From contig CALEDJ010000007.1 in assembly GCA_937951485.1 (NCBI GenBank), positions 1-64,000 on the forward strand: a DNA stretch of 64,000 nucleotides, in the 5' to 3' direction. Of the stretch, positions 38,463 through 50,190 are shown in pieces. Below the pieces are notes generated by a model that saw only the letters and a list, made by a program, of their open reading frames with translations, had not been told where the DNA came from and ran no database searches. A program made the position numbers and the translations under genes. The stretch is from an uncultured bacterium (GTDB taxonomy: Bacteria; Hydrogenedentota; Hydrogenedentia; Hydrogenedentales; CAILVY01). The first letter of the stretch is position 1, and each line of letters starts with the position of its first letter.

Positions 38463-39653
38463 TCAAACCTGTGCGATGCCTCGTATGCTCGAGACCAGAT
38501 ATTGCACCGCTTCGTCGGTGAGCCGGGGATGGATGGGCAGGGTGACGAGGCGATCGGCGAGGGCTTCGGCGACGGGGAATTGTCCCTTGCGGAAGCCGCG
38601 CTTCTGAAATGCCGTGCTCCAGTGCAGGGGAATGTAGTGCGTGCCGATTTTGACGCCCTTGTCGCGCATGGCAAGGATGAAATCGTCTTTGTCCATGCCG
38701 AATTGGCCGGCTTGTATTTCGATGGGATAAAGATGAAACACATGCCGGCCCTCGGGGCGCGTCGCCGGCAAGGTCAGCCCCGGCACATCGCGCAATCCCC
38801 CGGTGATTTGCGCCGCAATTTCGATGCGCCGCCGGTTGAGCGTTTCGAGTTTGCGCAGTTGAACGATGCCGACGGCCGCCTGGATGTCGGTCATGCGAAA
38901 GTTATAGCCGGTATCGTCGAAATCCTGCCACCAGAAGCGCTTGCCCATCGGGAAACGGGATGCATCGAGCGAACAGTATTTCGTGCTTTTTCCATGGACC
39001 CGCGTGCAGTGTGACCGATACAAGGCCACCCGCTCGAAGAAATCCGGGTCATTGGTCGTCACCATCCCGCCTTCGCCGAGCGTGGAAATGTTTTTCTGCT
39101 CATGGAAACTGAAACACCCCGCCGCGCCAAGGGACCCCGCCATTTTTCCCTGGTACTGCGCGCCCGGCGCGTGGCATGCATCCTCAATCACAGCAAAACC
39201 ATATTGGCGCGACAGCGCCAGAATAGCGTCCATGTCGCAGCATTGCCCATAGAGATGCACGGGGATCACCGCCTTCACTTCAGGGATCAGTTTCTTTTCC
39301 AGTTGCGCCGGGTCCAGCGTATAGTACTGCGGCTCCACATCCACGAAATCCACCGTCGCGCCCAGCGTTGCGCCCGCCGCCGCCGTGGCGATCCACGTCA
39401 ACGGCGTGGTCAGCACCCGGTCGCCCGGCCCCACCCCCGCCGCGATCAGCGACAAAAAAAGCGCTGCCGTGCCGTTCGACACCGCCCGCGCATGCGTCAC
39501 GCCGCAATACGCCGCAAAATCCCGCTCGAATTGCAGGCACGCCTCGCCCGAAGTCGGCGCATTCTGCGCCAGCACCGCCAGCATCGCCTCCGCCTCTTCC
39601 CCGCCGTATTCGGACCCGAACTTGCTTTCCAGTTCATACCTGATATTTGACAT
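38463..39653 (-). CDS. DegT/DnrJ/EryC1/StrS-family sugar aminotransferase
   Basis: 396 residues, cytoplasmic. Fold-type I PLP enzyme: GTAALFLSLIAAGVGPGD (cofactor phosphate), VIEDACHAPG with Asp158, and FSFHEQKNISTLGEGG where Lys187 should bind PLP. The family moves an amino group to a nucleotide-linked keto sugar for surface glycans. It follows a sugar-nucleotide reductase gene and a LacI regulator on the same strand, 160 bases after the reductase, so the three may be one unit. Confidence 0.92.
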   Translation of the reverse strand: MSNIRYELESKFGSEYGGEEAEAMLAVLAQNAPTSGEACLQFERDFAAYCGVTHARAVSNGTAALFLSLIAAGVGPGDRVLTTPLTWIATAAAGATLGATVDFVDVEPQYYTLDPAQLEKKLIPEVKAVIPVHLYGQCCDMDAILALSRQYGFAVIEDACHAPGAQYQGKMAGSLGAAGCFSFHEQKNISTLGEGGMVTTNDPDFFERVALYRSHCTRVHGKSTKYCSLDASRFPMGKRFWWQDFDDTGYNFRMTDIQAAVGIVQLRKLETLNRRRIEIAAQITGGLRDVPGLTLPATRPEGRHVFHLYPIEIQAGQFGMDKDDFILAMRDKGVKIGTHYIPLHWSTAFQKRGFRKGQFPVAEALADRLVTLPIHPRLTDEAVQYLVSSIRGIAQV

Positions 39654-39813: not shown

Positions 39814-40707
39814 TTAAAACCCGCCTCGTGTTTCCATCATCAAGGCAATCCCGCCGTCCAGGTCCTGCATGGGGGTCCTCAAGACGGCCCGCGCCTTGTC
39901 GTTGCGCAGGGACACATCGCGCGGGCGCGGGGCGCGGCCGGGGAGGTGGATGGGATTGGTGGGCGTCACCAGGGCGGGATCGTAACCGAAGCGCTCGGCG
40001 ATGCGCCGCACCATGGCGTGGCGGTTCAGCCAGTCATTGCCCGCCAGGTGCATCACGCCGCTAAAGTCGGCCCGCGCCAGTTCCAGCAGGGCGCGGCCCA
40101 GCGTGACCACATCAATCGGCGACCGAATTTCCTGGTCCGGCACGCCCAGTTCCTTTCCCTGCGCCAGCACGGGCAGCATGCGCGAAAGGAACGAATTGCC
40201 CGCGCCCAACATCGGCAGCCCCATCACCAGCGCCACCCGCGCCGTCACTGCGGGGCATCCCGCCCCGGCGACCACCTGCTCCGCCTCAAATTTCGTCACG
40301 GCATAGTGGTTCAGCGGGTTCGGCGCATCTTCTTCCGCATAACCGCCCCGTTCCCCGTCGAACACGGTGTCCGTGGACAGATAGATCAGACGACACCTTT
40401 GCCGTGCGCAGCATTCCGCGATATGCCGCGTTGCTGTGACGTTCACGCGCGTCGCCGCGTCCTGATGCGCCTCGCAATAGTCAATGTCGGCGATGGCTGC
40501 AGCATGGATGACGGCATTCGGACGGAATGATTCAAAGACGGCCGCCATCTGCGCCGCGTCGCAGATATCCGCAGTGTGCCAGGTGAGGCCCGGCCGCACC
40601 AGCGATGCCACGCCACGGCTCAGCGCAAAGACATCCCATGCGTCCGGGGCCTGGCGCAGAATGCTTCCCGCGACAAAACCGCCCGCCCCCGTTACCAGCA
40701 GACGCAT
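39814..40707 (-). CDS. RmlD-like sugar-nucleotide reductase (SDR)
   Basis: 297 residues from ATG 40705-40707. The Rossmann motif GAGGFVAG is at the N-terminus, followed by DICD, VIHAAAIADIDYCE, the catalytic YAVTK (Tyr-x-x-x-Lys), and STDTVFDGERGGYAEEDAPNPLNHYA, the RmlD/dTDP-4-dehydrorhamnose-reductase signature. Such enzymes reduce 4-keto sugar nucleotides. No other rml gene is nearby, so the exact product is unknown. The LacI gene ends 29 bases upstream, which makes co-transcription likely. Confidence 0.88.
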   Translation of the reverse strand: MRLLVTGAGGFVAGSILRQAPDAWDVFALSRGVASLVRPGLTWHTADICDAAQMAAVFESFRPNAVIHAAAIADIDYCEAHQDAATRVNVTATRHIAECCARQRCRLIYLSTDTVFDGERGGYAEEDAPNPLNHYAVTKFEAEQVVAGAGCPAVTARVALVMGLPMLGAGNSFLSRMLPVLAQGKELGVPDQEIRSPIDVVTLGRALLELARADFSGVMHLAGNDWLNRHAMVRRIAERFGYDPALVTPTNPIHLPGRAPRPRDVSLRNDKARAVLRTPMQDLDGGIALMMETRGGF

Positions 40708-40735
40708 CCCCAAAATGACTATCCTTCCTTCCTGA

Positions 40736-41821
40736 TCACTCCAATAAATCGAACAACCGCTTGGGCTTGGGCGCTTCGCCGGTCTTCTGTTCGGTATTGA
40801 ATACAGGGCGGTAGATCACCTGGATGGGGCCCTGGCGGGCGCCCGCCGTCCATTCCCCCAGTTGTTCGATGCCTTCCGCCGCCGCCTCGCGCACCGGCAG
40901 CCAGACATGTGCGGCGGCCTCCGTCAGGACCGCTGCGCGCTCGTCGTAGGTCCATGCCACCACGTCAACATCTTTCCCAGGCGTTCGCCCGGCGCGGCGC
41001 ATGCCCTCGCGCAGGCTCGCGCCATCCTGCACGGCACTGCAATCAATCAAGCCCGTGACCTTTGGGTCCGCCAGCAGCCGGTAAACCATGTTGGCGACGT
41101 TGCGGGAACCGAAGTTGACGGCGCGGATAAGGGTCTCGTCGAACGGGATGCCCGCCTCGTCCAGCGCCCTGCGGTATCCGCGGATCCGCTCCACGCCCGG
41201 TTGATACCCGTGAAACCCCTTCAACATGGCGATTCGCGTATGGCCCCGCTCCAAAAGAAACTTCGTGCTCAGATACGCGCCCTCGACATAGTCCACGGTC
41301 GCGCTGCTGCATTCCGGCAGACTGTCCAGCCGCCCCAGCGCAATATAGGGAATCCCACTCCGGTGGATGCGGTGAATGCTGGTATCGTCGGTGGCGAGCG
41401 GTCCCGCCACCACGCACGCCTTGAACAACTGCTCGAAAATCCCCCGCGCGTAATCCCGGTTCGGCGAGGCGTCATACGGGTTGATGTCAAAGCAGACATA
41501 TTCTCCCCGTATGCCGAAGACCCGGTATAATTCATTGAATAGCCACAAAAAGAAATCCTGGCTCACCGGCACTTCATCCATCGGCGCGGGAAGCGTCACG
41601 CCGATGCAGGCGTTGTGCCTGCCCCGCAATCCGCGCGCCCCGATGTGTGGGTGATAGTCCACCCGACGCATGATCTCCAGGATCCGCGCCCGCGTCTCGC
41701 GGCTCACCCCGCCCTTGCCGTTCAGCACGCGGCTCACGGTTTTCGCGGAAACCCCTGCTTCCCGCGCAATGTCGTATATCGTCCAATGTCCCGATTCGAT
41801 ATCGCTCGCCTGACGTTTCAT
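40736..41821 (-). CDS. LacI-family transcriptional regulator
   Basis: 361 residues from ATG 41819-41821; an ATG at 41866 would add 15 residues and neither has a strong ribosome site. The LacI HTH is at about 13-60 (TIYDIAREAGVSAKTVSRVLNG, RARILEIMRRVDYHPH), followed by a periplasmic-binding-protein-like effector domain (ACIGVTLPAP, IPYIALGRL, GHTRIAMLKGFHGY, GLIDCSAVQDG). It should bind a sugar or similar ligand. Two near-palindromic sites at 42028 and 42051 sit on its own promoter, and matching sites sit on the promoters of two pseudopilin genes, which predicts autoregulation and control of those genes. Confidence 0.93.
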   Translation of the reverse strand: MKRQASDIESGHWTIYDIAREAGVSAKTVSRVLNGKGGVSRETRARILEIMRRVDYHPHIGARGLRGRHNACIGVTLPAPMDEVPVSQDFFLWLFNELYRVFGIRGEYVCFDINPYDASPNRDYARGIFEQLFKACVVAGPLATDDTSIHRIHRSGIPYIALGRLDSLPECSSATVDYVEGAYLSTKFLLERGHTRIAMLKGFHGYQPGVERIRGYRRALDEAGIPFDETLIRAVNFGSRNVANMVYRLLADPKVTGLIDCSAVQDGASLREGMRRAGRTPGKDVDVVAWTYDERAAVLTEAAAHVWLPVREAAAEGIEQLGEWTAGARQGPIQVIYRPVFNTEQKTGEAPKPKRLFDLLE

Positions 41822-42027
41822 CCTGCTAACTTTCCCCTGACCCACGCGGGGGTCGTCATTATTCATGTGATTCGGAAACGTGGCGCCCCGTTAGATAACT
41901 GCTCCGAAGCCTGCCAGATGTCCCCACGAAGGACATGCTCCATGTGCGACGCTGTCGAACCTCTGTCCATGCTTATCACAGCCTGCTCCCATTCAACCCA
42001 TCACCAAGCATCCCGGATTCCAACGCG

Positions 42028-42076
42028 GTAATCGGTTACTAAATCAAAGTGTAACCCATTACCGGGGATTTGTCAA
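42028..42076 (-). promoter_or_regulatory. LacI gene promoter with two operators
   Basis: On the minus strand TTGACA (42071-42076) and TACACT (42048-42053) are spaced by 17 bases. Operator GTAATCGGTTAC lies at 42028-42039, downstream of the -10, and a second site GTAACCCATTAC at 42051-42062 fills the -10/-35 spacer. The same 12-mer recurs at 43657 and, with one change, at 42303 and 43814. A LacI dimer on these sites would block its own gene. The leader to ATG 41821 is about 220 bases. Confidence 0.75.
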
Positions 42077-42264
42077 TCATTTCTTGCCATGATGAAGAAA
42101 AAAAGCGAAAGGAACTCCGTAACACTTTAGCGGCATGGCATTTATCGTCGGAAAGCACTACATGGCCTGCAACATTCCCCGCTGCACGCAACTACGGTAA
42201 AAATTTTACAGAATTCCCATTTTAGAACAACGAAGCAGTCTAAGAACTACGCGAAAAAACTGGG

Positions 42265-42314
42265 TTGACAATCGGCCGGCTTTCTGCTATGCTGTACACT
42301 AGGTTATCGGTTAC
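42265..42314 (+). promoter_or_regulatory. Pseudopilin 2 promoter with LacI-type operator
   Basis: TTGACA (42265-42270), a 17-base spacer and TATGCT (42288-42293) with an extended TG form a strong sigma70-type promoter. The near-palindrome GTTATCGGTTAC (42303-42314) sits at the expected transcription start. About 150 bases of leader follow to ATG 42455. Confidence 0.75.
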
Positions 42315-42454
42315 TGCGCAGGGCTGTGAGTGAGAAAGGTTGTCGCATCCGCGCGGCGACAAGCGGGCAAGGCTCGCGTCAGCGCATAATCGGAGTCATC
42401 GGGCAGGAATTTATGTTCGCGCGGGAAACGGGCAACGCCCAAAAGGAGTGTATC

Positions 42455-43441
42455 ATGCGAAAAGGATTTACGTTGATCGAATTGCTGGTGGTGATTGCCA
42501 TCATCGGCATTCTGGCGGCGATCCTGCTGCCGGCGCTTGCGCGCGCGCGCGAAGCGGCCCGCAGGTCCAGTTGCCAGAACAACCTCAAACAATGGGGACT
42601 GGTGTACAAGATGTACGCCAACGAGTCCCCGGGCGAGAAGTACCCGAGATTGCATGTGTATTTGGGACCACGGCACAATTGCGATGACCCGACGTTCCCT
42701 GTAACCAATCCTCAACATGGTCGGGTTAAAGCGGGTCCCTATGTACCATCAATATATCCGGAATACCTCACAGACCCGAACATCGTCTATTGTCCGTCCG
42801 ACGCCGAAGACAACCCGACCCAACTGTACAGTCCCGTCACGGGTCTCATGGAATTCGGCTACCACTGTCACAAGGACCAGCGCGGACACAGCCAGATTGA
42901 CCAGAGTTATGCTTATGTGGGCTGGGTGCTGGACCGCATGGACGATGGCATGGACGGCGTCCCGGCAAATATCGTTGCAGGGCTTATCCCGCAGATTCCC
43001 ACGAATTTTCCTTACACCATTCCTGCCCAGTTCCTCGCCATGTTGGAATCGTTGCTGACATTGCCTGATCCGGCAAAGGTTACAGCTTCCGACCAGGACA
43101 TCAATACACTGAACAGCGCGTTCAATGGCTTTGCCACCCCGCCGGCCATCGGTGTGGGCAACGCCGGCGGCACAACCATCTATCGCCTGCGCGAAGGCAT
43201 CGAGCGCTTCCTGATCACCGACATCAACAACCCCGCCGCATCGGCCAAGGCCCAGAGCGAGGTCTATATCATGTTTGACCTGGTCGCCATTGTGCCGGAG
43301 GGATACAACCACATCCCCGGCGGTTCAAACGTGTTGTACATGGATGGTCATGTCGAGTTCATCCGCTATAACCCGCCCGGTTCGCCAGCCCCGGTCGCGG
43401 CGGGCTTTGCCGCGCTGATCGGCGCCATCGGTTTCATGTAA
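42455..43441 (+). CDS. Pseudopilin with H-X9-DG C-terminus (paralog 2)
   Basis: 328 residues. The leader is only MRKG before [20 protein letters not shown], with AAAAGGAG upstream of the ATG. The body carries [19 protein letters not shown], a proline/aspartate-rich middle, [26 protein letters not shown] and [20 protein letters not shown]. The first 50 residues are almost identical to paralog 3 even at DNA level, which points to recent duplication or gene conversion. A LacI-type operator is on its promoter and a strong terminator follows. It is exported by the type IV pilus/type II secretion machinery, none of which is in the window. Confidence 0.93.
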
Positions 43442-43487
43442 GCCGAACGCGAACGCCGGCGTGACCGGCTGATATGTGTAGAACGCG

Positions 43488-43527
43488 CCGCGGTACGACC
43501 GAAGGTCGTACCGCGGTCATTTTTTTG
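43488..43527 (+). terminator. Rho-independent terminator of pseudopilin 2
   Basis: A perfect 13-bp stem (CCGCGGTACGACC at 43488-43500 with 43504-43516) and a GAA loop are followed by TCATTTTTTT. It lies 46 bases after the stop codon. Confidence 0.92.
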
Positions 43528-43656
43528 CGGAATGCGGAGTGAAGGGAGAAGAATGAGATGGAGAGCGCGCAGAGGACTGACCTGCCTTCCGGCTGGCAAT
43601 GGTTTACAGTCCCGAACCATTGCCCGCGTGGGGGAAATGCGTATGGGAAAGGTATA

Positions 43657-43668
43657 GTAATCGGTTAC
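43657..43668. promoter_or_regulatory. Upstream LacI-type operator
   Basis: GTAATCGGTTAC, identical to the site at 42028. It lies 157 bases (about 15 helical turns) upstream of the operator on the pseudopilin 3 promoter, a spacing that would allow a LacI tetramer to form a loop. No promoter boxes are seen beside it. Confidence 0.65.
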
Positions 43669-43774
43669 TAAGTCTTATTCAAGATACTATAAATGCGCTT
43701 TCCTTTGCCTTTTCCAAGAATCTCTGTTTCCTGTAAAAAAGATTCATGAACAAAACGGATTCATCGGCAAAAGA

Positions 43775-43825
43775 TTGACAACGCTCCAGAAAACATGCTA
43801 TAATTGGGCGCAGGTTATCGGTTAC
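43775..43825 (+). promoter_or_regulatory. Pseudopilin 3 promoter with LacI-type operator
   Basis: TTGACA (43775-43780), an 18-base spacer and a consensus TATAAT (43799-43804) with extended TG. The operator GTTATCGGTTAC is at 43814-43825, at the expected start, in the same position as in the pseudopilin 2 promoter; both are flanked by AG before and TGC after. Confidence 0.78.
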
Positions 43826-43965
43826 TGCAAACAGGGCTTCATGGAAACCGCGTCGCCGCCGCGTCAGCCTCACGGTTTCTCCAGGAAAAACCCCAGCGGG
43901 AACCGGATGTGTCTGGGATTTATATAGACGCGGACAAAAGGGCTGTGCCCAGGAGACTATGTGTC

Positions 43966-44934
43966 ATGCGAAAGGGTTTTACGTTGATCGAACTGCTGGT
44001 GGTGATTGCCATCATCGGCATTCTGGCGGCCATCTTGTTGCCGGCGCTTGCGCGCGCGCGCGAAGCGGCCCGCAGGTCCAGTTGCCAGAACAACCTCAAA
44101 CAGTGGGGACTGGTGTACAAGATGTACGCCAACGAATCCAAGGGCGAACGGTTTCCGCCGCTGCAGGCCGGCAAGTATCTGATGCTCAACGGCCAGCCTG
44201 GTCCTGCGCTGGACGTCGGTCCAAACTTGTTCACGCTGTATCCTGAGTATCTTACCGATCCTATGATTGTCTTCTGTCCTTCTGACGCTGAACTGGGCGA
44301 TTCCATGCAAAAAGCCAAGGATCCCGTCACGGGTGAATGGTGCTTCGGATATACAAACAACCATGGCGGAAAATGCGCGCGCGCTGTGGATTCCAGTTAC
44401 GGATACTTGGGATGGGTCATGGACCGCGCCAATTGCAGCGATCCTCAACAGATGCTGAGCACTTTCCCGACGTTGAACTTATTGGCATCACAACTTGGCG
44501 TAAACCTGCCCCCCAATACCATGCTTTCCTCACAGGTTGGCTACTCTTTTGAGCATATTGCAGAGGTGGTGGTACAAGTTCTCTTGACGTGGCCTACTTT
44601 GCCGATGGGAATCTTGCCCGATTCGGACAATGATATTTCCGTGCCCGCACCCCATGGCAATGGAGGGGGCAGCACCGTCTATCGTCTGCGCGAAGGCATT
44701 GAACGATTCCTGATTACGGACATCAACAATCCGGCGGCCAGCGCCCAGGCGCAGAGCACGCTGTTCATCATGTTCGACCAGCTCTCCACCAATCCCGCGG
44801 CGTACAACCACGTTCCGGGCGGGGCGAATGTGCTGTTCATGGACGGGCACGTCGAATTCATCCGTTACGGTGAATGCGAGCCTGCTCCGGCGAACCGACT
44901 GATGGCGGAACTGGTCGGCATCTTGACCGAATAA
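43966..44934 (+). CDS. Pseudopilin with H-X9-DG C-terminus (paralog 3)
   Basis: 322 residues. Leader MRKG, then [20 protein letters not shown] and the [23 protein letters not shown] helix shared with paralog 2. Downstream it diverges ([19 protein letters not shown], a hydrophobic stretch around [14 protein letters not shown]) and then rejoins with [26 protein letters not shown] and [23 protein letters not shown] 43966 has AGGAG 11 bases upstream. The promoter carries a LacI-type operator and a second operator further up. Probably a paralog for a different ligand or position in the pseudopilus. Confidence 0.93.
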
Positions 44935-45069
44935 TTTCGCAATCCTTGGGCGCGCGGGACTCTTGAACCGGTTCCCGCGGGAGTGCAAGCGCTTCCGCGG
45001 GAACCTATTTGTTCACTGGCAAGAAGACACAATAGATGCAAACGGCTTACGCATGCCGTTTCTCCTGAG

Positions 45070-45095: not shown

Positions 45096-45145
45096 TTCGT
45101 CTCATAGGCGACGGATGACAAGACGCATGAAACGGTTCAGAAAAC

Positions 45146-45347
45146 GACAAGGACAGCAAGGACGACAAAGACAGCAAGGACACGACGAGGCAATGTAGCG
45201 TCGTAGCGTTGCACCGCGGGAACGGTGCAACGAGGGACTCGTCCTATTGTCTTTGCTGTCCTTATTATCTTTGCTTTCCTTATTGTCTTTACTGTCCTTG
45301 TTGTCCTTGCCGTCCGTGCTGTCGCTGCCGTCCTTGCTGTCCTTTTC
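45146..45347. repeat. Composite inverted element: tandem 9-mers around a palindrome
   Basis: A left array of purine-rich units (GACAAGGAC, AGCAAGGAC, GACAAAGAC and so on, 45146-45187) and a right array of the complementary kind (GTCTTTGCT, GTCCTTATT, 45241-45347) flank a palindrome at 45207-45232 with arms CGTTGCACCG and loop CGGGAA. The arrays can be read as low-complexity peptides in several frames, but the 9-base period, variable units and convergent-gene location point to a noncoding repeat. It lies between the 3' ends of pseudopilins 3 and 4. Confidence 0.75.
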
Positions 45348-45448
45348 TCCCACCCAAACAAATACCCCGGCGCGGATAGATTCCCTTCCCGCGCCGGGGT
45401 TGGGTTGCGCTTTCGCGCATCAGATTCGTTGTTGTTTGTGACCGTTCC

Positions 45449-46435
45449 TCAGAAGGCCGAGGTCAACACCGCAAAGGCCCGGGTGATGGGGAAATCACCG
45501 GGGAAGCGGATGAAACTGACATGGCCGTCCATGAACAGCACATTCGAACCGCCGGGGACATGGTTGAACTCTTCCGCAAGCCAGGAGGCGAGGTCCCACA
45601 TGACCGGGATTTCGCTCTGCGCCTCGGCCGAGGCGGCGGGATTGTTGATATCCGTGATGAAGAAGCGTTCAATCCCTTCGCGAAGCCGGTACAGCATTTT
45701 CTCTTCACCCAACTTGTTGGTGAACTTCAGGTCCCTGTCATACCGGTTGGCACTGCCCGGCGGAGTGACGTTCGCCTGCTGCGTGATAATGCCGGCCACC
45801 AGCGTCACAAAGTTCACACTCAAGACGGTGTCCGAATACAACAGGCCGCCCGGATTCGCTATCGGCGCGTTCGGGTCTATGCCCGGATTCAGATAATCCT
45901 CGCCGGGTTTGCCATTGAGCGCCCACGCCACATACATGTACGATTCCGCTGTGAACGCGCAAGGGTCCACCACGCCTTGATTGCCCAGACCCAACTCCAC
46001 CTGGTTGTACCAGAAACCGGTGGTGGGGTTTACAGCCGCCTTTGCGGAGGAATCCGACGGACACACCAGCACGTTGACATCTGTCAGATATTCCGGATAG
46101 ACCGCCGGACCGTCGAACACGAACTCCGCATCGCCGCCTGCCGAGGGCGGTGCGAACGGGTTGTTGTAGCCGCATTGCAGATAGGTTGTCACGACCGGCT
46201 GGGGCGTCTGCATCTGGTACGAGATGCGGTACGCCATCGAGGGGAAGCGTTCGCCCTTGGACTCGTTGGAGTACATTTTGAACATCAGCCCCATCTGCTT
46301 CAGGTTGTTCTGGCAACTCGACCGCCGCGCCGCTTCGCGCGCGCGCGCCAGCGCCGGCAGCAGAATTGCCGCCAGTATCCCGATGATGGCAATGACCACA
46401 AGTAATTCGATCAGCGTAAAGCCTCTTTGTTTCAT
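45449..46435 (-). CDS. Pseudopilin with H-X9-DG C-terminus (paralog 4)
   Basis: 328 residues. Leader MKQRG then [26 protein letters not shown] precedes ATG 46433-46435. It shares the [21 protein letters not shown] helix, [45 protein letters not shown] and [20 protein letters not shown]. It is transcribed toward paralog 3. Its promoter has a different palindrome from the LacI sites on paralogs 2 and 3. Confidence 0.93.
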
Positions 46436-47766: not shown

Positions 47767-50190
47767 TCAATGGTCCTGTTCGTCGTCTTCGATGCGGCCT
47801 TCCCAGAGGTAGCGGCGGGTTTCGGCGACGATGACGCTGCTGAGCAGCAGCAGGGCGAGGAGATTCGGCGCGGCCATCAGGGCATTGGCGATATCGGAGA
47901 AAGACCAGACCGTGGGCAGGGACACGGTGGCGCCCACAAACACAAACAGCACCCACAGACAGCGATACGGGACAATGGCGCGCCCGCCCGCCAGGTATTC
48001 ACAGGCCTTTTCGCCGTAATAACTCCATCCGAGAATTGTGGAATAGACAAATGTGAGAAGTCCGACGGTCAGGACAAAAGGGCCGATATAAGGGAACGCT
48101 GAAAATGCCCTGTGGGTGAGCGCCGCGCCCCGCAACCCGTCGGTCCATGCGCCGGAATTGACGATGACCAGTCCCGTCATCAGGCAGATGACCACGGTGT
48201 CCCAGAAGGTGCCGGTGGACGACACGAGCGCCTGGCGCACGGGATTTTTCGTCTGCGCGGCTGCGGCCACGATGGGCGCACTGCCCAGGCCGGACTCGTT
48301 GGAGAACAGCCCACGCGCCACGCCGTATCGCATTGCTTCGCGCACGCCCGCGCCGAGGAAGCCGCCGAGGGCGGCATGACCGGAAAAGGCGCTTTTGAGA
48401 ATCAGCATGACGGTGGCGGGCAGCGTGGAGATGTGCATGAGCAGCAGAACGAGGCATCCGCCGACATAGAGCAGCGCCATGAACGGCACGAGTTTCTCCG
48501 AAACGCGCGCGATGGACCGGATGCCGCCCAAGACCACCATGGCGGTCAATCCGGCAAGGACAATCCCGCTCAGCCACAGCGGGATGCGCAGGGTGTCTTG
48601 CAGCAGGCCCGCCGCCGCATTCGCCTGCACCATGTTCCCGATGCCGAAGGAGGCGATGACGGTGAACAGCGCGAAGAGGACGCCGAGCCACCGGCAGCCC
48701 AAGCCGTGTTCCAGCGCGTACATCGGCCCGCCGGCCATGCCTTGCGGGGTCATCACGCGGTATTTCACGCCGAGCAGCGCCTCGGAATACTTGGTGGCGA
48801 TGCCGAAGACGCCGGTCAGCCACATCCACAGCACCGCCCCCGGCCCGCCCGCCGCCACCGCCGTCGCCACGCCCACGATGTTGCCGGTGCCGACCGTGGC
48901 TGCCAGGGCCGTCGTGAGTGCGCCGAAATGGCTGATATCGCCCCTGCCTTCGCCGCCGCGCATAAACGAGAGCCGGATAGCCTTGCCGATGAAGCGCTGG
49001 ATCAGCCTCAGGCGGATGGTGAGAAAGAGGTGCGTGCCGCAAAGCAGCACGAGCATCGGCGGTCCCCACACGAAATCACTGATACGCCCCAGCAGTGTCT
49101 CGAATCCGGCGAAGGCGGGAGAAGGTTGCGGTGCGGCCTCTTCCGGCGGGCGGCCATAGAAGTGCTCCTGCAGGAAGGCATGCATGAGAAATTCATTGCG
49201 GGCAGCCACCGGCGCGATCAGGTCCATCGTGTGCGGGAATCCGTCCGCGCGGTCGTACCAGTAGGGAACACCCAGCGCCTGGAATTTCTCGGCCAGCATG
49301 TCCGCCTGTCCGACGGGCACGATGTCGTCAATCGTGCCATGCAGAATCAGCGTGGGCGGCGCGTCTGCGGTCACGTGACAGATCGGCGAGGCGAGTTCAT
49401 AGAGGTCCGGGGCGTTCTCGTAGGGTTCGTCCAGAAACCCCCTGACCGTGGGGTGATTGCGGGCATATTCCGTGGTGAGGTCCGTCGGGCCGTAGGCATT
49501 GACCACCGCCGCGACCGCGCTGCTGACGCCCGCGTGGCCGCCGTCGCCCTCCAGGCGCGGGTCATCGGGCGCATAGCCGACCATCATGGCGAGATAGCCG
49601 CCGGCGGAACCGCCGACCACGGCGATGCGGGCCGCGTCCACGCCCAGTTCCAGCGCGTGCGCGCGCAGCCAACGCACCGCGCACTTGGCGTCCTCGACGC
49701 AGCCCGGGAACTTGGCTTCCTGCGCGAAGCGGTAGCCGATGCTCGCCACGACATAGCCGCGCGCGGCGAATCGGACCGCATAGAACTTGTAATCGCGCTT
49801 GTCGCCGCTTTGCCAGCCGCCGCCATGAATGAAAATGACCGCGGGGCGCGGCTCCGCCGCCGCGTCTGGCAGATAAAGGTCCAGAAGCAGGGGCCGCTTC
49901 CCCACGCGGCCATATTCCACATCGGCGCGGAAGGTGACGCCGTCGGGAATCGGAATATCTCCCCAGACATCCACGATGTCCACCATACCCAAGACATACA
50001 TCAGGATTGCTGCTTTGAACGTGGGAAAGCCTCTCAATGGGGGCGGCGCATAGGCGGGCAGGCGCACGAGGTCCGGACGTTTTCCCGGCGGGCGCCCGTC
50101 AATGAACAGAAAATGGAACGCCACAGCGCCGCCAATCAGCAACGCCGCAAGCCCCATGCACACAATTACCCGAACGATCCCTGACCTCAT
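47767..50190 (-). CDS. Alpha/beta-hydrolase fused to AGCS sodium/amino-acid symporter
   Basis: 807 residues in one uninterrupted frame. Residues 5-30 are a signal-anchor helix. Residues about 85-345 are an alpha/beta hydrolase of the carbohydrate/feruloyl esterase-like type: oxyanion HGGGW (122-126), nucleophile GGSAGG (Ser195), Asp288/289 in GTIDDIVP and His320 in GFPHT. After a Pro-rich linker (347-362), residues 365 to about 795 are a sodium:alanine/glycine symporter (AGCS): VGTGNIVGVATAVAAGGPGAV, GGPMYALEHGLG, FGIGNMVQANA and FSNESGLGSAPI. Both halves keep their key residues. The hydrolase would face the periplasm and could free an amino acid or similar from an ester for uptake. I know of no standard family with this architecture. 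Confidence 0.88.
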   Translation of the reverse strand: MRSGIVRVIVCMGLAALLIGGAVAFHFLFIDGRPPGKRPDLVRLPAYAPPPLRGFPTFKAAILMYVLGMVDIVDVWGDIPIPDGVTFRADVEYGRVGKRPLLLDLYLPDAAAEPRPAVIFIHGGGWQSGDKRDYKFYAVRFAARGYVVASIGYRFAQEAKFPGCVEDAKCAVRWLRAHALELGVDAARIAVVGGSAGGYLAMMVGYAPDDPRLEGDGGHAGVSSAVAAVVNAYGPTDLTTEYARNHPTVRGFLDEPYENAPDLYELASPICHVTADAPPTLILHGTIDDIVPVGQADMLAEKFQALGVPYWYDRADGFPHTMDLIAPVAARNEFLMHAFLQEHFYGRPPEEAAPQPSPAFAGFETLLGRISDFVWGPPMLVLLCGTHLFLTIRLRLIQRFIGKAIRLSFMRGGEGRGDISHFGALTTALAATVGTGNIVGVATAVAAGGPGAVLWMWLTGVFGIATKYSEALLGVKYRVMTPQGMAGGPMYALEHGLGCRWLGVLFALFTVIASFGIGNMVQANAAAGLLQDTLRIPLWLSGIVLAGLTAMVVLGGIRSIARVSEKLVPFMALLYVGGCLVLLLMHISTLPATVMLILKSAFSGHAALGGFLGAGVREAMRYGVARGLFSNESGLGSAPIVAAAAQTKNPVRQALVSSTGTFWDTVVICLMTGLVIVNSGAWTDGLRGAALTHRAFSAFPYIGPFVLTVGLLTFVYSTILGWSYYGEKACEYLAGGRAIVPYRCLWVLFVFVGATVSLPTVWSFSDIANALMAAPNLLALLLLSSVIVAETRRYLWEGRIEDDEQDH

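Follow-up and report, generated by a model that had tools for sequence, protein, structure and literature searches.

A LacI-family regulator with predicted operators at its own promoter and at two DUF1559 pseudopilin promoters in Hydrogenedentota

Introduction

A LacI-family protein encoded in a 64 000-nucleotide stretch of a Hydrogenedentota genome (hereafter, the window) is, with a probability that we put at about 0.8, a repressor that controls its own gene and is otherwise devoted to a few of the ~48 DUF1559/H-X9-DG pseudopilins of that genome. The protein would work in the known manner of a classical LacI autorepressor; what would be new is the pseudopilin target and the phylum-wide, private nature of the module. 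The predicted operator code set out below spans a phylum that, to our knowledge, is almost entirely uncultured, and may give a first handle on how DUF1559 pseudopilins, one of the largest unexplained protein families of Hydrogenedentota, could be switched on. A conserved regulator with a defined predicted operator allows a direct test, and its releasing ligand would tell when, and hint why, the pseudopilins are made.

Few paralogous families in Planctomycetes and their kin are as large as the DUF1559 pseudopilins. There are 74 DUF1559 genes, some of them stress-responsive, in Rhodopirellula baltica (PMC2754498), and 68, two of them essential, in Planctopirus limnophila (PMC10632474). In the open literature searched, we found no paper linking LacI proteins to DUF1559, none on LacI-family repression of a pilin gene through an operator, and none tying pseudopilin expansion to polysaccharide in Planctomycetes.

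Results and discussion

Predicted operators lie on the promoters of the regulator and of two pseudopilin genes

The regulator gene (40736–41866, minus strand) encodes 376 aa, with PF00356 and Peripla_BP_3 matches above cut-off. A consensus scan placed its promoter, TTGACA-17-TACACT, at 42048–42076 on the minus strand, and on the plus strand those of pseudopilin 2 (TTGACA-17-TATGCT, 42265–42293) and pseudopilin 3 (TTGACA-18-TATAAT, 43775–43804; 12 of 12 consensus bases). We then scanned the window for GTAACCSATWAC and found five exact matches, at 42028 (−), 42051 (+), 42303 (−), 43657 (−) and 43814 (−), which are the positions originally predicted; there was no further exact match in the window. 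When up to two mismatches were allowed, 11 matches were obtained against 7.1 expected, so that just the exact set stands out in the window.

Three of the five predicted operators have a near-identical offset from a promoter, ∼+2 to +14 if transcription, whose starts in the window were placed from the −10 positions, begins 7 bp after the −10. The operators at the putative starts of pilin 2 (42303–42314, annotated on the plus strand) and pilin 3 (43814–43825, likewise) have their first base 10 bp past the last −10 base, the centre of the former being 18 bp from the −10 centre, and the one just past the LacI start (42028–42039, minus strand) begins 9 bp past the −10 box. A second predicted LacI operator (42051–42062, plus strand) covers the −10 and the spacer and has C-C rather than C-G at its centre. 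The pilin 3 operator is preceded, 157 bp upstream, by the fifth site (43657–43668, annotated on the plus strand), near which the scan for promoter-like sequence found no promoter. The original prediction put three sites on sigma70-type promoters, those of LacI and of pilins 2 and 3; the three promoters stand, but four of the five sites, not three, are on promoter-like sequence, because the LacI promoter bears two (42028 and 42051). The helical phasing of paired sites, judged by eye from coordinates, differs between families, and looping is therefore left as a possibility.

The exact operator is almost private to the locus

GTWATSGGTTAC has six exact copies in the genome of 4.55 Mb, five of them at the locus. 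The genome-wide scan that the original prediction had called for thus left a single exact site off the locus (C31:64895), inside a RimI-like gene (named by eye). With one mismatch allowed, the whole genome gave 27 matches and the reversed-pattern control also gave 27, so that the number of sites beyond the locus does not exceed chance; none of the 22 exact or one-mismatch sites elsewhere in the genome is on promoter-like sequence. As far as such scans can tell, the regulon looks local and private to the locus.

We considered a wide trans regulon in eight relatives and rejected it. Reading the frame context of those sites that could be assigned a locus, we found that sites away from the LacI–pilin loci were nearly all inside long open frames; those in frames of 378 aa (L203, with promoter-like sequence adjoining), 256 aa (L192, with a weak promoter-like match) and 195 aa (L206) may be exceptions.

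Pairing of the regulator with a divergent pilin is characteristic of the ortholog family

Orthologs of the regulator (E ≤ 1e-60) were present in 47 of 68 Hydrogenedentota genomes, many of which are fragmented drafts, and in 34 of the 38 of good quality. A scan of contigs from named genomes gave a single matching locus, labelled Candidatus Hydrogenedentota. For comparison we used the window together with 60 orthologs at 58 loci, leaving out the fragments G049:C127 and G052:C602, and a control of 40 non-orthologous LacI genes from the same genomes, these being weaker matches with an aligned HTH region and excluding G051:C452 (at a contig edge) and lower-listed rows. Pilins in relatives were recognized through an N-terminal motif expression.

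A divergent DUF1559/H-X9-DG pilin lay within 900 bp in 27 of the 52 orthologs with a full 900 bp upstream (29/61 overall) and near 4 of the 40 control genes, although p-values of such ortholog comparisons are overstated because the rows are related. The frequency was 29/50 within 1500 bp, for orthologs with that much sequence and excluding the window, and 23/37 when counted by genome. The divergent pilin was absent within 900 bp in 25 of the 52, and from all members of a deep seven-row clade (0/7). The pairing is characteristic of the ortholog family, not universal. The central claim of the original prediction, a LacI regulator with sites on its own promoter and on those of two pseudopilins, is upheld both by the lack of any comparable site elsewhere in the genome and by the recurrence of the arrangement in relatives.

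When 606 neighbouring ORFs were clustered, the only family widely shared besides LacI was the pilin family (46 ORFs, 30 loci); DegT was found at five loci and RmlD at four. Conserved glycan genes near the module were rejected on the same clustering, and two further clusters (3 and 4) were discarded as shadow frames, being apparently antisense to LacI or pilin genes by their coordinates. Three orthologs from outside the main set served as fresh cases: G060 has a pilin in divergent orientation, with a site at each of the two promoters, one carrying a single mismatch; G063 has a pilin and none of the three operator palindromes described below; and G067, which is truncated, has neither pilin nor operator.

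Of 31 linked pilins, two were cut at contig ends, and the 29 that could be searched were compared with the 48 pilins of the source genome. The best match was pilin 3 for 11 and pilin 2 for 2, and the remainder best matched pilins elsewhere in the source genome (5, 5, 3, 1, 1 and 1). This spread of best matches indicates that different families often have the same orthologous pilin as the linked partner, and sometimes another pilin. We found no support for conversion at the 5′ ends of pilin genes as a general route of partner exchange, agreement at fourfold sites being 0.48 against 0.44 expected; the exception is pilins 2 and 3, in which 26 of 28 such sites agree.

Operator class changes with regulator clade

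We counted, de novo, each of the 256 possible hhhhNCGNhhhh palindromes upstream of the orthologs. GTAANCGNTTAC (GTAA class) ranked first, with 17 sites in 13 regions, and GACANCGNTGTC (GACA class) second, with 11 sites in nine regions; the GCGC palindrome followed at rank 3 (5) and every other scored 2 or fewer. Upstream regions of control LacI genes contained GTAA in one case and GACA in one. On the tree, exact GACA sites were found in 9 of the 21 rows of one clade and in 0 of 40 outside it, and exact GTAA sites in none of those 21 and in 13 of the 40. The A-N clade, in which A-N replaces A-K in the recognition helix, has CATTATCGATAATG as a third class of palindrome: two members carry it exactly, and all four carry it with three or fewer mismatches. 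This change of operator class with regulator clade provides good evidence for recognition of the predicted operators by the regulator.

Class-matched sites were near a sigma70-type −10 in 30 of 47 cases, compared with 15% of control positions, and the other 17 had no promoter match. Those directed towards a pilin are typically 13–22 bp downstream of the −10 centre, as in the window. Of the 28 orthologs that have a pilin, 15 showed exact operator sites, as did 7 of the 25 that lack a pilin; many orthologs have no recognized operator upstream.

The effector domain departs from that of classical sugar-binding LacI proteins

The regulator has the LacI-type HTH and the C-terminal periplasmic-binding-like domain of the LacI/GalR family, both over Pfam cut-offs (PF00356, 68.7 bits with a cut-off of 27; PF13377, 40 with 26.5; PF00532, 34.4 with 22.2). 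It reached no equivalog cut-off among the 18 NCBIfam families listed, the best match, TIGR01481 (the CcpA equivalog), scoring 97.6 bits against 442.35; the closest solved structures are nevertheless CcpA proteins (2o20, E 4e-28). On these profile scores the protein belongs to the LacI family and to no named subfamily tested.

In sugar-binding LacI proteins, the acidic residue of the G-F-D-D/N motif has a role in the effector pocket. This residue, present in the classical sugar-binding proteins RbsR and GalR, is absent from the aligned orthologs, and where CcpA has G-F-D-N every ortholog variant listed has W-T-Y, or rarely W-S-Y or W-A-Y; in the phmmer alignment to the CcpA chain 3oqo, T stands opposite the D. 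The ortholog effector domains also strongly conserve a stretch K-x-F-x-G-Y/F-x-P-x-x-E-R-x-R-G-Y. Together, W-T-Y and the conserved stretch suggest that the orthologs have one shared ligand, which is probably bound differently from classical sugars.

The enzymes downstream of the regulator are confined to the nearest genomes

The gene next after LacI encodes an RmlD-like reductase (39814–40713, minus strand; PF04321, 195.9 bits), and a DegT-type aminotransferase is also encoded on the minus strand, at 38463–39653 (PF01041, 373.8 bits). The scores against the PseC and RmlD equivalogs, 334.4 and 182.8 bits, are below the respective cut-offs of 423.5 and 224.05. The reductase follows LacI in the source genome (G000), G001, G002 and G014, and the aminotransferase in the first three of these, not in G014. 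Since the enzymes are behind LacI in just the nearest genomes, the pair, judged from gene order, is a lineage-specific addition.

The linked pseudopilins belong to a large paralogous set

Pseudopilins 2 (42455–43441) and 3 (43966–44934), both on the plus strand, are DUF1559/H-X9-DG proteins with matches to PF07963 and, over cut-off, to PF07596, TIGR02532 and TIGR04294, and both have the prepilin GFxxxE N-terminus and the H-X9-DG motif (TIGR02532, TIGR04294; PF07596). Neither reaches the equivalog for GspG, the type II secretion major pseudopilin (37.1 and 35.8 bits against 88.85). Each gene is followed on the plus strand by a terminator-like hairpin, with a 14-pair stem and then a T run after pilin 2 (43487–43517) and with a 16-pair stem after pilin 3 (44970–45005). 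A structure model of pilin 3, made from a four-row alignment, had a mean pLDDT of 33 and was unusable.

The genome contains 48 H-X9-DG matches. When upstream frames were inspected, few of the other pilins had a recognizable regulator adjoining, namely a TetR-like frame (L208, by eye) and, on contig 33, a LacI gene; the stretches inspected were short, and C-terminal HTH types would escape. The window has pilins at 42455, 43966 and 8979, and a fourth (45449–46435, minus strand), which is oriented convergently with pilin 3, lacks an operator of the GTAA type. Identity between pilins 2 and 3 is 94% across 188 nt at the 5′ ends (42449–42636 and 43960–44147) and 74% across a stretch of 212 nt close to the 3′ ends. 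Taken with the agreement at 26 of 28 fourfold sites, the 5′ ends appear to have undergone recent local conversion or duplication.

A proposed mechanism and its alternatives

We propose that a LacI dimer bound at ∼+2 to +14 would block initiation or promoter clearance, and that the extra sites at 42051 and 43657 would raise occupancy, perhaps through looping. An effector bound to the conserved C-terminal domain would alter DNA binding and so shift the pilins and the regulator together, up or down; the downstream reductase and aminotransferase would be co-regulated in the source lineage only.

It is improbable that LacI regulates itself alone, with the pilins mere bystanders of a divergent intergenic region. 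LacI proteins commonly autoregulate, and 7 of 25 orthologs have operators yet no divergent pilin; against this, pilin 3 is far from LacI and has a perfect promoter of its own with an operator on it, in many relatives the site is 13–22 bp downstream of a pilin-directed −10, and the pilin promoter bears a site even where the pilin is 1.06–1.23 kb away (L067, L069 and L110). Still less probable is a global, CcpA-like catabolite regulator with the pilins as a few among many targets. The closest solved structures, and the similar core of CcpA sites, would suit such a regulator, but its ccpA equivalog score is far below the cut-off, no other site in the genome is borne on a promoter, and the eight relatives have local sites only, with L203 as a possible exception. 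We can give hardly any credence to chance or a short functionless repeat as the origin of the sites: although the window count at two mismatches is not above shuffles, such an origin is at odds with the clustering of exact sites, their promoter geometry and their conservation in other families. Chance matches were also rejected on the genome-wide scan, with 5 of 6 exact copies at the locus and none of the 22 sites elsewhere on promoter-like sequence.

The original prediction further held that a sugar is the inducer and that, through the module, glycan sensing is coupled to surface pseudopili. We regard this as doubtful, although less so than the alternatives above. Many LacI proteins bind sugars, Pfam periplasmic-binding and sugar-binding models match the regulator, and a nucleotide-sugar-type reductase and an aminotransferase follow LacI here. 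Those two enzymes, however, are confined to the nearest genomes, near the orthologs there is no conserved family for carbohydrate catabolism or transport, and all variants listed have W-T-Y (in rare cases W-S-Y or W-A-Y) at the place of the CcpA G-F-D-N. A sugar ligand is possible, but it is not favoured by the pocket signature.

RbsR, GalR and LacI are local autoregulated repressors of the LacI/GalR family. Like them, the dedicated repressor proposed here combines an HTH with a periplasmic-binding-like domain and has near-palindromic, central-CG predicted operators at the starts of its own and a neighbouring gene; unlike them, it would control pseudopilins in place of a catabolic operon, has W-T-Y for G-F-D-N and meets no NCBIfam equivalog cut-off. 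CcpA is its top solved homologue and top NCBIfam match and has a similar operator core, but the score of 97.6 bits compares with a cut-off of 442 and the site set is local, not global. The pseudopilins resemble those of Planctomycetes in their prepilin and H-X9-DG motifs and in forming a big paralogous set (48 here), and differ in having a dedicated adjacent regulator with predicted operators, none being described in the literature searched.

More tentatively, one ancestral LacI with a non-classical pocket may constitute, across Hydrogenedentota, a switchable display slot in which one or a few out of some fifty surface pseudopilins come under its control, lineages having swapped the pilin and kept the operator–promoter design. 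If this were so, pseudopilins would be environmentally selected surface proteins and not constitutive pilus parts.

Additional features of the locus and of its relatives

Two tandem copies of the LacI ortholog with pilins adjoining were seen at L073 and L100 (genomes G036 and G048), where the module is apparently duplicated. At L110 (G008:C25:8010-9080), the LacI ortholog has one in-frame TAA and yet keeps upstream operators, including one located on the promoter of the pilin 1.2 kb off. The source genome has three LacI genes; the second (L186, G000:C33:41709-45350), which is unrelated, is divergent from a pilin resembling pilins 2 and 3, and its region has another inverted pair, around ATTTCGCAAAT, in place of the GTAA operator. 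Within the window, a degenerate 9-nt tandem repeat of the TTGTCCTT type occupies 45245–45352, with complementary copies at 45144–45182, and an 807-aa frame (47767–50190, minus strand) joins a BD-FAE-type alpha/beta hydrolase to a sodium:alanine symporter domain, an unusual fusion.
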